Shown: piece by piece, positions 2,004-44,171 of the stretch | Layout of the letters: every line of letters starts with the position of its first letter | Position numbering within the stretch: position 1 is the first letter of the stretch | Source: Desulfatitalea tepidiphila | GTDB taxonomy: Bacteria; Desulfobacterota; Desulfobacteria; Desulfobacterales; Desulfosarcinaceae | Assembly: GCF_001293685.1 (NCBI RefSeq) | Contig: NZ_BCAG01000001.1 | Coordinates: forward strand, 620,001 to 684,000 | Reading direction: 5' to 3' | Length of the DNA: 64,000 nucleotides | Translations under genes and position numbers: made by a program | Notes under the pieces: model-generated | What the model was told of the DNA's origin: nothing | Databases searched by the model: none | What the model saw: only the letters and a program-made list of their open reading frames with translations

Positions 2004-2280
2004 ACTGATGGGTCGGATATTTAGAAGGTGTTTGATAAAAATTTCCTTGATAACGGAGATGGCAGGCGTGTGTGGGGCAGGTGGCCAGGGCCACGTGAGC
2101 CTGCGGTCTCAGAGCCAGTTGAATGCGAACGGCGGACAAGCGGCCCAGACTGTTTGAGCGCAGCGAGTTTCTGGGCCGGCCGCCGTGCATTTTACTGGCT
2201 CTTAACCGCTTGGCGTGTGGCATCGGCCACCTGTTCCACACACGCCGGGTTTAATGAATAGTGTTCGGATAGAATCGCTG
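2004..2280 (+). repeat. Dispersed structured repeat R1, copy 1
   Basis: First of three copies of a roughly 280-300 bp element; the others are at 17184-17475 and 43875-44171. The core is a long irregular palindrome. Outer arms 2065-2086 and 2225-2246 pair over 22 positions, counting two G-U pairs. Inner arms include AGCCAGT (2113-2119) with ACTGGCT (2194-2200). The apical part (about 2138-2178) is almost identical in all copies. The left end is more divergent than in copies 2 and 3, so its boundary is approximate. No protein is encoded. Confidence 0.85.
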
Positions 2281-2296
2281 CCCTGCTAAAAAACGC

Positions 2297-2326
2297 TTGA
2301 CACCCTGGCGGTTTCCTCTCTATTTA
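2297..2326 (+). promoter_or_regulatory. trp operon promoter
   Basis: TTGACA (2297-2302) and TATTTA (2321-2326), 18 bp apart, precede the trp leader. Transcription would start near 2333, leaving room for the leader peptide and attenuator before trpE. Confidence 0.65.
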
Positions 2327-2377
2327 GCCGACATGAATCCACAGATGATTTCCATACCATCGAGACAACAAGAAGCA

Positions 2378-2443
2378 GTGAACATCAGAGGATGGTGGTG
2401 GCGCTGGTGCCTGTGTGCCTGCGGTGCCCTGCCGACCGACTGA
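2378..2443 (+). CDS. trpL: trp leader peptide
   Basis: A short reading frame ending at TGA 2441-2443 contains four Trp codons in five positions (WWWRW, codons at 2393-2407). It lies between the trp promoter and an intrinsic terminator upstream of trpE, which is the classical layout of ribosome-mediated transcription attenuation. The start is uncertain. GTG 2378 gives 21 residues and sits behind a weak purine-rich site (AAGAAG). In-frame ATGs at 2333 and 2345 would give 36 and 32 residues. When charged tRNA-Trp is scarce the ribosome would stall on the Trp run and favour readthrough into trpE. Confidence 0.75.
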   Translation: MNIRGWWWRWCLCACGALPTD

Positions 2444-2463
2444 AACCATATACCGGCAGTTAC

Positions 2464-2502
2464 AAGGACCGTGGGCCGACTCGAGCTCACGGTCCTTTTT
2501 TT
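2464..2502 (+). terminator. trp attenuator (intrinsic terminator)
   Basis: AAGGACCGTG (2464-2473) pairs with CACGGTCCTT (2488-2497), and the helix can extend inward by GGC/GCT-type pairs. It is followed by an unbroken run of T through 2502. It lies 20 bp after the trpL stop codon, as expected of an attenuator. Confidence 0.8.
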
Positions 2503-2512
2503 GTACTGAAAA

Positions 2513-2549
2513 GGGTCGCGGGCCGAAGAGGTCACAGCGACCTTTTTTT
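2513..2549 (+). terminator. Second terminator-like hairpin in the trp leader
   Basis: GGTCGC (2514-2519) pairs with GCGACC (2537-2542), followed by seven T (2543-2549). It sits immediately downstream of the first attenuator and just before the trpE ribosome-binding site. It could be a tandem terminator or part of an alternative fold. The loop is long, so this is less certain than the first hairpin. Confidence 0.45.
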
Positions 2550-41363: not shown

Positions 41364-41438
41364 CGGCGCCGGTCGGCGCTAATTGTTTAGTAACCCATCC
41401 AAGTTTGACTTCTGTTGCGTGAACATAGTACGAAACGA

Positions 41439-41461
41439 GGGGCGGGCGTTACGCCCGCCCC
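41439..41461. terminator. Hairpin between convergent genes
   Basis: GGGGCGGGCG (41439-41448) and CGCCCGCCCC (41452-41461) form a 10-bp perfect stem with a 3-base loop between the regulator (plus) and the FadJ-type gene (minus). The following T tract (TATCTATTTT) is weak, so it may be an inefficient or bidirectional terminator. Confidence 0.55.
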
Positions 41462-41504
41462 TATCTATTTTGGATGGATGCCACCCGCTTGACGATGGGC
41501 ATCT

Positions 41505-43586
41505 CTAGTTCAAGGAAGCGAATTTCTTCCCTTCTTTGACCAGTTTTTCCAGCAGGGCGGCGGGTTTGAAGTCATCGCCATGTTCGGCCTGGAACTTCTT
41601 CATCACGTCGAGCACCTTGTCCAGTCCGACCAGGTCGGCATAGAACATGGGGCCGCCGCGGTACAGGGGCCAGCCATAGCCGTTGATCCAGATGACATCC
41701 AGGTCGCTCGGCCGCACCGCGATTTTTTCTTCCAGAATTTTTGCCCCCTCGTTGATGATCGGGTAGATACAACGCTGCAGAATCTCTTCGTCGGAGATCC
41801 CCCGGCGTTTATATCCCTTTTTCTCTGAAAATTCGACGATCAGTTGATCGACTTCGGGCGCGGGTTTGGGAACTCGGCTGCCCGGGTCATAATTGTAGTA
41901 GCCTTTGCTGGCCTTGAGACCGAAGCGGCCCTGCTCGCAGATCAGGTCCCGGATCGAATCGCCCGTGGAGGTCTCCTTGCTCCAGCCCAGGTCGTTGCCG
42001 ATCAGGTCATAGAGTTGGAAGGGACCCATGGGGAAACCGAAGTCGTACACCACCTTGTCCACCTGGGCGGGCAGCGCGCCTTCGAGGATCAGCTTCTCGC
42101 TTTCACGGCGGCGCTGGGAGAACATACGGTTGCCTGCGAAGCCGTGGCAGACCCCGACCATCACGGCAATCTTCTTGATTTTTTTGGCGATGGCCATGGC
42201 CGTGGCCAGAACCGGGATCGACGTTTTGGCGGCGCGCACCACTTCGAGCAGGCGCATCACGTTGGCCGGGCTGAAAAAGTGCAGGCCGAGCACATACTCG
42301 GGCCGTTGGGTCATGGCCGCGATCTCGTCCACGTTCAGGTATGAGGTGTTGGTGGCCAGGATGGCGCCCGGCTTGCAAATGGCGTCGAGCTTGGAGAAGA
42401 TCTCTTTTTTCAAGTCCATGTTTTCGAAGACCGCTTCGATGACCAGGTCCACGTCGGCCAGATCTTCCATGTGGGTGGTGCCCTTGATCAGGCCCATGCG
42501 CGCGCTGACATCGTCGGCCGTCATCTTGCCCTTCGAGGCGCTGATGTCGTAGTTTTTCTTGATCACGCCCAGGCCGCGGTCCAGAAACTCCTGCTTGGCC
42601 TCGACCAGGGTCACGGGGATGCCGGCGTTGACGAAGTTCATGGTGATGCCGCCGCCCATGGTGCCGGCGCCGATGACGCCCACCTTCTTGATATCGATCA
42701 GCGGCGTATCTTTGGGGATGTCGGGAATCTTAGCCACTTCGCGCTCGGCAAAGAAGTAGTAGCGCTGGGCCGCCGACTGGGAGCCGCTCATCAGTTGCTG
42801 GAACAGCTCGCGCTCATACTTGAGGCCTTCGGCAAACGGCTTGTGGACGGCCGCTTCCACCGCCTTGACGCACGCTTCGGGTGCTTCGAAGCCGCGGGCG
42901 GTCTTGGCCAGCTGTTTGCGGTAATCGGCGAAGATTTCGGGTTTGTTGCGTGCCTCGTCGATTTTTTCGGTCATGGTGCTGACCCGGCGCATGGGCCGTT
43001 TTTCGGCCAGGACTTTTTGGGCGAAAGCGATGGCGCCTTCGGCCAGATCACCCGCCACGATCTCATCGATGACGCCCTCCTTGAGGGCTTTGTCGGCGCG
43101 GATCGGGTTGCCGGTGGCGACCATGGGCAGGGCCTTTTCCGGACCGATCAGGCGCGGCAGGCGTTGGGTGCCGCCGGCGCCCGGCAACAGGCCGAGTTTG
43201 ACTTCCGGCAACCCGAATTGGGCGCTGGGCACGGCGACCCGGAAGTGGGAACTCAGGGCGGTTTCCAGTCCACCGCCGAAAGCCGTGCCGTGGATGGCGG
43301 CGATGATGGGTTTGGAGCACTGGTCGAACGTGTTCAACACGTCGGGTAGATGCGGCTCGAGCGGCGGTTTGCCGAATTCGCGGATATCGGCGCCGGCACA
43401 AAAGGTGCGGCCTTTGCAGATGACCACGATCGCCTTGATGTCGTCATCGTTCATCGCCATGGTGATGCCGTCGGCCATGCCCTTTCGTACGGGGTGCCCC
43501 AATGCGTTGACCGGGGGATTGTCGATCCACAACAGGGCGATCTCCCCTTGCTTTTCCAATGATACGGCTTCGGTAATCGCAACCAT
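41505..43586 (-). CDS. fadJ: Bifunctional enoyl-CoA hydratase / 3-hydroxyacyl-CoA dehydrogenase
   Basis: A 693-residue beta-oxidation enzyme catalysing hydration of enoyl-CoA and oxidation of the resulting hydroxyacyl-CoA. The N-terminal crotonase domain (about 1-190) has both catalytic Glu residues ([16 protein letters not shown] and [19 protein letters not shown]). The dehydrogenase NAD motif is [17 protein letters not shown] near residue 295, with [17 protein letters not shown] further on. Two C-terminal dehydrogenase domains complete it. The start at 43586 follows AGGAGGAG. With the separate thiolase/dehydrogenase operon at 17611 it suggests active acyl-CoA metabolism. Confidence 0.93.
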
Positions 43587-43616
43587 TCGTCTCTCCTCCT
43601 GATGAATTGATAGTTC

Positions 43617-43661
43617 ATGCCCATCCACAAATAGCCAATTGGCCTGTTTGTGGACGGGCAT
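43617..43661. repeat. R4-derived 45-bp palindrome
   Basis: The two ends of repeat R4 (ATGCCCATCCACAAATAGCC and CTGTTTGTGGACGGGCAT) lie back to back around CAATTGG, giving a nearly perfect palindrome. The interior seen in the full copies at 17015 and 58807 is missing. It lies 30 bp upstream of the fadJ start codon, so it could affect that gene's 5' end. Confidence 0.7.
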
Positions 43662-43874
43662 TGGTGATATGGATTTTCAAAAATGTGACAAACCGGAATG
43701 GATGTCTCAAAATGACCAATAAACGGTCCTTGTTTAATCATACCTGCGCTTTCCTGTCCATACCTTATAACCCGCAGCTCCGACAAACCCGGCACGCCCC
43801 TCCCAGCCCCGCAGATGCCGCCTCGCCGGAAGTGATAACACGTTGAAACGGAGCGCTATTCTCCAGCAATTCGA
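43662..43874. other. Intergenic DNA between fadJ and repeat R1 copy 3
   Basis: About 210 bp between the R4-derived palindrome and R1 copy 3. It presumably contains the fadJ promoter on the minus strand. I see no convincing gene; small frames here have no ribosome-binding site. Confidence 0.35.
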
Positions 43875-44171
43875 ACTGAATGGGATTCACCCTGAAGGGC
43901 ATGCTTTCCAAAAGATGTTTCATAAAAAGAATCGTATCGCAGCAGACATGGCAGGCGTGGGTGGAGCAGGTGGCCAGGGCCACATACGCCAGCGGTCAAT
44001 AGTGCCGCTTGAATGCAAACGGCGGTCAAGCGGCCCAGACTGTTTGAGCGCAGCGAGTTTCTGGGCCGCCCGCCGTGCATTCATAGCGGCAGTTGACCGC
44101 TTGGCGTGTGGCATCGGCCACCTGGTCCATCCACGCCGGGTTTGTTGCATCGCATTTAGTTGGAATCGCTG
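43875..44171 (+). repeat. Dispersed structured repeat R1, copy 3
   Basis: The third R1 copy. Outer arms 43954-43975 and 44116-44137 carry GTGGGTGG/CCATCCAC. The inner arms carry TGCCGCT/AGCGGCA where copies 1 and 2 have AGCCAGT/ACTGGCT, a compensatory change on both sides of the helix. The apical region is the same as in the other copies. The conserved right end GGAATCGCTG finishes at 44171, 17 bp before the -35 of the next promoter. Confidence 0.85.

Follow-up and report, generated by a model that had tools for sequence, protein, structure and literature searches.

The miniature inverted-repeat transposable elements (MITEs) of bacterial insertion sequences (ISs), such as MITEAba12, are short, lack a transposase, carry terminal inverted repeats (TIRs), are flanked by target duplications and occur in many intergenic copies; Correia/NEMIS and ERIC are further bacterial examples. 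In yeast Ty1/Ty3 and in Tn7, the element is steered to a safe site beside a transcription unit or a conserved site and inserts with a fixed orientation or spacing. To our knowledge, no bacterial DDE transposon has been described that integrates at a fixed distance from promoters. The element considered here, R1, is present in three copies in a 64,000-nucleotide stretch of the Desulfatitalea tepidiphila genome (contig NZ_BCAG01000001.1, positions 620,001 to 684,000), referred to below as the window. R1 is a MITE without a transposase of its own. It shares the traits of bacterial MITEs listed above and differs from them in its position, exact to a single base, upstream of predicted sigma70 promoters, and in its long palindrome with a tip that is common across phyla. 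Unlike the retrotransposons Ty1/Ty3, which use Pol III factors, and the multi-protein transposon Tn7, the system is a small bacterial IS and its MITE at sigma70-like promoters. R1 is probably a non-autonomous element that is moved in trans, at a fixed spacing, by a promoter-guided transposase. The promoter spacing and the phylum-crossing tip are its points of note, and neither was visible to the author of the original prediction, which was made from the window's sequence. No report of the promoter spacing or of the tip was found in the literature searched (open-licence texts, titles and starts of abstracts).

R1 is identified as a MITE because it has TIRs and a constant 9-bp target-site duplication (TSD), because both occupied and empty sites exist, and because autonomous partner ISs with matching or related ends occur in other genomes of the order. 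A 26-nucleotide stretch of the hairpin tip has 106 matches with at most 3 mismatches in the 5.6-Mb D. tepidiphila genome (55 forward, 51 reverse), against 0 for the reversed control pattern, and at least 3 further copies with changed tips bring the genome total to at least 109. The loci analysed number 106, namely 103 of the tip matches and 3 copies with changed tips, and 6 of these loci came by way of blastn. The consensus unit of about 305 bp starts with CAGCRATTCTAACTGAATG and closes with the reverse complement of CAGCRATTCTAACTGAATG, which are the TIRs common to the copies. Among the 73 loci with usable ends (33 of the 106 were not used), direct repeats of 9 bp flank the element with at most 1 mismatch in 31 and at most 2 in 48; shuffled partners gave 0.0 at 9 bp, and other lengths from 5 to 13 gave at most 1 locus. 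Shortened forms of roughly 68-170 bp that have the same ends and are internally deleted are also present in this genome. No autonomous element turned up in this genome when it was looked for with the TIR and in 20 extra stretches, which yielded only MITEs in shortened form, isolated ends and L137, a nearly full-length copy whose tip is changed.

The position of the element was examined relative to promoters predicted from sequence, using 95 loci with a recognisable right end and 82 left flanks. The trinucleotide TTG starts exactly 17 bp beyond the right end in 49 of the 95 loci, compared with an average of 1.8 (maximum 6) over the 59 remaining offsets (p ~ 2e-57); there are 4 at +16 and 0 at +18. 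At the left flank, TTG is found at +17 in 7 of 82 loci (mean 1.5 and maximum 5 elsewhere), and it is usually the right end of the MITE that faces the promoter. Base preference from +17 to +21 is T.76 T.72 G.66 A.52 C.54, and a TATAAT-like box peaks at +40, which corresponds to a 17-bp spacing from the -35 box. A -10 box with at least 4 of 6 matches occurs at +40 in 17 of the 51 loci with a -35 match (background 1.5) and in 10 of the 44 loci without one (background 1.4, p ~ 9e-7). Since the -10 box is in register even where the -35 match is missing, more than TTGACA appears to be read. With this spacing, one end of the element is close to -52 relative to the predicted start, a position just outside the predicted core promoter. 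In a mechanical count made without a control, the first same-strand open reading frame (ORF) of at least 80 amino acids starts at a median of 84 bp. At 4 of the 106 loci, the right end of another element lies exactly 9 bp leftward (1, 3, 4 and 5 mismatches of 17; expected 0.009), as if one site had been hit repeatedly. A second tip-bearing MITE of sibling genomes, with the TIR CAGCAATTCTCGGTGAAC, has TTGA at +17 in 2 of the 3 copies with a readable end, and in the third it is two bases off.

All three window copies fold into the same long hairpin, with z-scores of -9.3, -9.0 and -11.6, and for none of them did any of 200 shuffles fold as well. The three hairpins of the original prediction are therefore real, and the arm pairs quoted for them are found in the sequence; the limits of the copies shifted after alignment of the family, from starts at 2004, 17184 and 43875 to those listed here. 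The features of the three copies, with their predicted promoter boxes, are as follows.

1986 to 2280, forward strand: MITE copy 1, from the family alignment; left TIR degenerate, TSD not recognisable
2149 to 2170, forward strand: hairpin tip ACTGTTTGAGCGCAGCGAGTTT of copy 1, a match to the tip pattern and a cross-phylum motif
2297 to 2302, forward strand: -35-like TTGACA at offset 16 from the right end of copy 1, from sequence and the family profile
2321 to 2326, forward strand: -10-like TATTTA at offset 40 from the right end of copy 1
17163 to 17171, no strand: left 9-bp target duplication of copy 2, from TSD comparison
17172 to 17475, forward strand: MITE copy 2, from the family alignment; TSD with 2 of 9 mismatches
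17344 to 17365, forward strand: hairpin tip of copy 2, a match to the tip pattern
17476 to 17484, no strand: right 9-bp target duplication of copy 2, from TSD comparison
17493 to 17498, forward strand: weak -35-like GTGACG at offset 17 from the right end of copy 2, from sequence
17517 to 17522, forward strand: -10-like TAAGGT at offset 41 from the right end of copy 2
43855 to 43863, no strand: left 9-bp target duplication of copy 3, from TSD comparison
43864 to 44171, forward strand: MITE copy 3, from the family alignment; TSD with 1 of 9 mismatch
44039 to 44060, forward strand: hairpin tip of copy 3, a match to the tip pattern
44172 to 44180, no strand: right 9-bp target duplication of copy 3, from TSD comparison
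44189 to 44194, forward strand: -35-like TTGACC at offset 17 from the right end of copy 3, from sequence
44212 to 44217, forward strand: -10-like TATAAA at offset 40 from the right end of copy 3

Each of the three window copies fits the promoter-spacing pattern. In the sibling genome G007, the site orthologous to copy 3 has a TIR adjoining an assembly gap.

Evidence for movement comes from comparison with genomes of the same genus. The flanks of 33 loci were joined, and 14 hand-picked pairs were searched in the genus, where the sibling G007 is 73% complete. Nine of the 14 sites are empty in G007 and hold a single copy of the 9 bp, 4 are occupied (3 with N gaps and 1 holding a short form), and 1 was left uncalled. 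In 8 of the 9 empty sites, the -35-like box is present without the element.

The putative mobiliser was deduced from relatives in other genomes. The sibling G004 has a TIR one base off that of the MITE adjoining the C-terminus of a transposase with 58% identity over 48 amino acids to the transposase of G023; the two IS ends in G004 that share the MITE TIR with 1 mismatch have TTGACA and GTGACA at +17. A piece resembling the N-terminus of the transposase stands beside a TIR in G001, recognised by eye only. G023 contains 9 near-identical IS copies of 1762 bp, one of them cut at the left, with the TIR CAGCAATTGTAATT and a transposase of 453-465 amino acids. All 8 copies with both ends have a 9-bp TSD, and 6 of the 9 copies carry TTGA beyond one end, at a distance of exactly 17 bp (4 right, 2 left; p ~ 4e-11). 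An IS of G041 (1712 bp) has a TIR identical to that of the MITE over 16 of 16 bases and TTGACG at +17, without a clean TSD. A search of 389 genomes of the order returned a relative in 72 (E <= 1e-10). The autonomous partner ISs in other genomes of the order have transposase ORFs of about 440-470 amino acids. Among 50 order-level loci there were 15 distinct insertions with TIR and 9-bp TSD, one of which is a G023 copy already counted. Five of 7 plasmid relatives examined (out of 16 records) have CAGCAATT ends and 9-bp duplications, and one plasmid relative is annotated as ISNCY family (Gloeothece WP_013335080.1). By transposase, the nearest autonomous relatives are ISNCY family and IS4-like DDE_Tnp_1 ISs, which likewise have TIRs beginning CAGCAATT and a 9-bp TSD. 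The partner IS differs from these in that the models run assign it to no named family (the NCBIfam IS4_2 score is 18.5 against a cut-off of 152) and in that the promoter spacing is found in only part of its relatives. No solved structure similar in sequence to the transposase was found.

By the mechanism proposed here, the promoter would direct a transposase acting in trans to this position, with promoter-bound RNA polymerase as the simplest guide, and the element would thereby land just outside the core promoter. That RNA polymerase provides the guidance is our hypothesis. Alternatively, insertion could be random or merely intergenic, with the copies at exact spacing having been retained by selection as domesticated, promoter-regulating modules. 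The MITE copies do look old (40 copies scored by blastn are 88-94% identical to one copy), young-looking distant IS copies with intact TSDs are not at +17, and 6 of the 15 examined IS loci that lack a clean TSD, the G041 IS included, show TTG at +17 from their right end, all of which would agree with retention. Retention accounts poorly for the single-base precision at the right flank, for the +17 spacing of near-identical G023 copies with intact TSDs in both orientations, and for the repeated hits at single sites. We regard it as quite unlikely; targeting is favoured over retention because of the near-identical G023 copies and the repeated hits, and it is supported rather than proven. It is also conceivable, and has somewhat better prospects, though it too is unlikely, that what the transposase reads is the sequence TTGA(C) itself, a fixed distance away, rather than a promoter or polymerase. 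The base preference from +17 to +21 is what such recognition would give, and at several G023 sites TTGA is not accompanied by a good -10 box; the -10 box in register at loci without a -35 match argues against it.

Several further observations weigh against movement by a promoter-guided transposase. Searches of the window and of the rest of the D. tepidiphila genome found no transposase belonging to the partner family; for the window, the original prediction had stated this of transposases generally. About half of the MITE loci have no clear -35 box at +17, and the -10 box of G023 sites is often poor, so that the transposase might read TTGA(C) directly. In 14 IS copies with clean TSDs and proteins 35-39% identical to that of G023, none of the 28 flanks has TTGA at +17. 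Only 2 of the 5 plasmid relatives with TIR and TSD have TTG there (TTGACA in Saccharobesus and TTGGCA in Nostoc), and a scan of 18 related genomes gave 44 TIR-like ends, many of them chance TIR matches, with at least 4 of the 6 bases of TTGACA at +17 in 12. The promoter preference is thus at most a trait of part of the IS group, which is defined by its TIR and TSD. The Pfam match of the transposase to DDE_Tnp_1, at 22.4 bits, is just below the cut-off of 23.

The tip of the hairpin, ACTGTYTGAGCGNAGCGAGTTT, has a distribution of its own. It occurs in 16 of 395 genomes of a phylum sample, with up to 78 copies per genome besides the D. tepidiphila genome, and a scan of species genomes gave at least 120 tip stretches, many in metagenome bins, in records whose titles name Bacteroidota, Bacillota, Pseudomonadota, Nitrospirota, Patescibacteria and others. 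The arms are distinct in 96 of the 122 tips with enough flank. In these 96 hairpins, the first 8 bp are Watson-Crick paired in 667 of 768 cases (random partners average 227, maximum 266), mismatches show no wobble excess (11 G.T and 11 A.C), and pairing falls off after position 8-9. The tip contains GCGNAGC, which is a DNA mini-hairpin, and its central N is A in 55, C in 32, T in 31 and G in 11 of 129 tips. The GA/GA on its two sides could form sheared pairs. In L137, the mini-stem is lengthened, with CCCCGGCGCAGGCCGGGG replacing GCGCAGC, and the GCA loop and its surround are kept, which fits the mini-hairpin fold. According to PMC4686876, GCGNAGC forms a GNA loop with N free on two G-C pairs and is very stable and nuclease resistant, the melting temperature of GCGAAGC being 78 C. 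The d(GCGNAGC) mini-hairpin is part of an aptamer in that paper, whereas here it lies inside a conserved genomic tip with a longer invariant surround.

The tip is also found within elements that have quite different ends, GTAACTATTCAGC in G411, G375 and G272 and CTCAACTTTCGAC in G039, and it is regarded for this reason as a module picked up by several mobile elements. The module most likely acts as DNA: the long hairpin would work as DNA, and the tip with its mini-hairpin may be a cap or recognition site common to unrelated mobile hairpins. At L157, L158 and L184 (G411, G375), tip hairpins stand in elements ending TTGTAACTATTCAGC/GCTGAATAGTTAC, which we take to resemble IS66-type ends, and one 2.3-Mb genome has as many as 78 tips. 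In many phyla (L203, L219, L220, L226, L231, L265 and others), the tip hairpin is followed downstream by a second hairpin, TACTTTTYTTTG-NNCAAG-CAAAGAAAAGTA. Also recurrent in many phyla, when judged by eye, is an internal loop some 9 bp below the tip that is asymmetric, with GTTA, GACAA or the like facing a single base. No conserved gene was found beside the tips in other phyla: 560 ORFs from 80 of the at least 120 loci formed clusters of at most 8 loci, which were judged by eye to be common gene families. The tips had no match in 20,395 E. coli records (E <= 10), and of the 9 plasmid records that matched none covered 80% of the 34-nucleotide query. The family PF12784 (Rpn, PD-(D/E)XK) was tried as a candidate and rejected, having been found in 1 of 40 genomes (G199), without a tip match, while the controls also gave 0 of 14; that search did not include PF04754.

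Covariation of the arms, which the original prediction had claimed for three copies and proposed to test on more, holds on 83 loci, namely 82 of the 86 with an alignment score of at least 440 (L072, L088, L111 and L135 were excluded by hand) and window copy 1. A consensus structure of 55 pairs is paired in 97.6% of cells (35-47% in slid controls), and doubly changed cells number 138 compared with 48 in shuffles, where 0 of 500 were as high. The double changes stem from a few arm haplotypes common to many copies and are not independent events, and the count of pairs with a double change is a weak measure (10 compared with 7.5 in shuffles, a value reached by 24 of 500). One-sided changes in the stems of the family, counted without the two wobble-rich pairs (columns 108 and 109), are more often C to T, giving G.T (60 of 2942), than G to A, giving A.C (24 of 2891; p ~ 1e-4, from related and thus not independent copies), and unpaired columns have no C to T bias (154 of 3403 vs 250 of 4565, p 0.06). 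This G.T excess favours selection acting on a single strand, whether RNA or single-stranded DNA.

The original prediction had offered a structured RNA or a DNA-hairpin mobile element, and the mobile part has held up through the 9-bp TSDs and the empty sibling sites. A structured RNA, either a riboregulator or a transcribed element, would explain the covarying arms and the wobble excess of the family stems that is missing in unpaired columns. This reading is very unlikely given that the window and 20 tip loci had 0 Rfam matches at gathering score, that wobble is not in excess in the cross-phylum arms, that the tip accepts each of the four bases at its centre, as DNA GNA mini-hairpins do, and that the predicted promoters are downstream of the element. 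A link with repetitive extragenic palindromes (REPs) and their RAYT transposases, in which a Y1 (HUH) transposase would move the hairpins, had been proposed for checking as well. The GTAG/CGTC REPs are likewise intergenic palindromes in high copy in several phyla; they differ in being 20-40 bp long with a terminal tag, and AGCGAG is absent from the main text of the paper describing them (PMC3733652). There are four Y1 matches in the D. tepidiphila genome, and other tip-bearing genomes also have Y1 genes. No Y1 match was found in the tip-bearing genomes G005 (100% complete), G010 (95%) and G008 (64%), so that the distribution of Y1 does not track the tips. With units of about 305 bp that have TIRs and fixed 9-bp TSDs, a REP/RAYT system is extremely improbable.

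A broader proposal is put forward tentatively, as one that may be correct but has the odds somewhat against it. A clade of small DDE transposons might target by way of sigma70 promoter complexes, with promoter-bound RNA polymerase offering DNA at about -52 to the transposase, which would make them a bacterial equivalent of Ty-type targeting of promoters. The MITE tips might be a selfish, phylum-crossing DNA cap, built of sheared G.A pairs and a GNA triloop. Such a cap would protect folded single-stranded DNA or present it, and several unrelated mobile elements would have adopted it.

Other repeats are present in the window. A second dispersed palindromic repeat of 151 nucleotides (17014-17164 and 58798-58948, 82% complementary), of the form CCACAAATNGGC...AAATTT, looks like another MITE family, and similar sequence adjoins MITE copies elsewhere (L111, L117, L132, L155). 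An inverted pair of 127 nucleotides that is 93% complementary (7962-8088 and 46821-46947, 39 kb apart) constitutes a further repeat family. Direct repeats lie side by side at 5650-5813 and 57059-57221 (110 and 47 nucleotides, 79% and 74% identical), and part of them recurs at the left end of the MITE locus L096.

As a concrete motif that can be searched for, the tip connects repeats of many phyla and points to a binding partner that they share. The dozens of likely promoters that have one common upstream element in this genome constitute a natural test of whether such insertions rewire expression. If insertion is guided by polymerase, the family would offer a simple system in which to study the reading of a transcription complex by a transposase, and it might also serve as a tool that inserts DNA upstream of active promoters.

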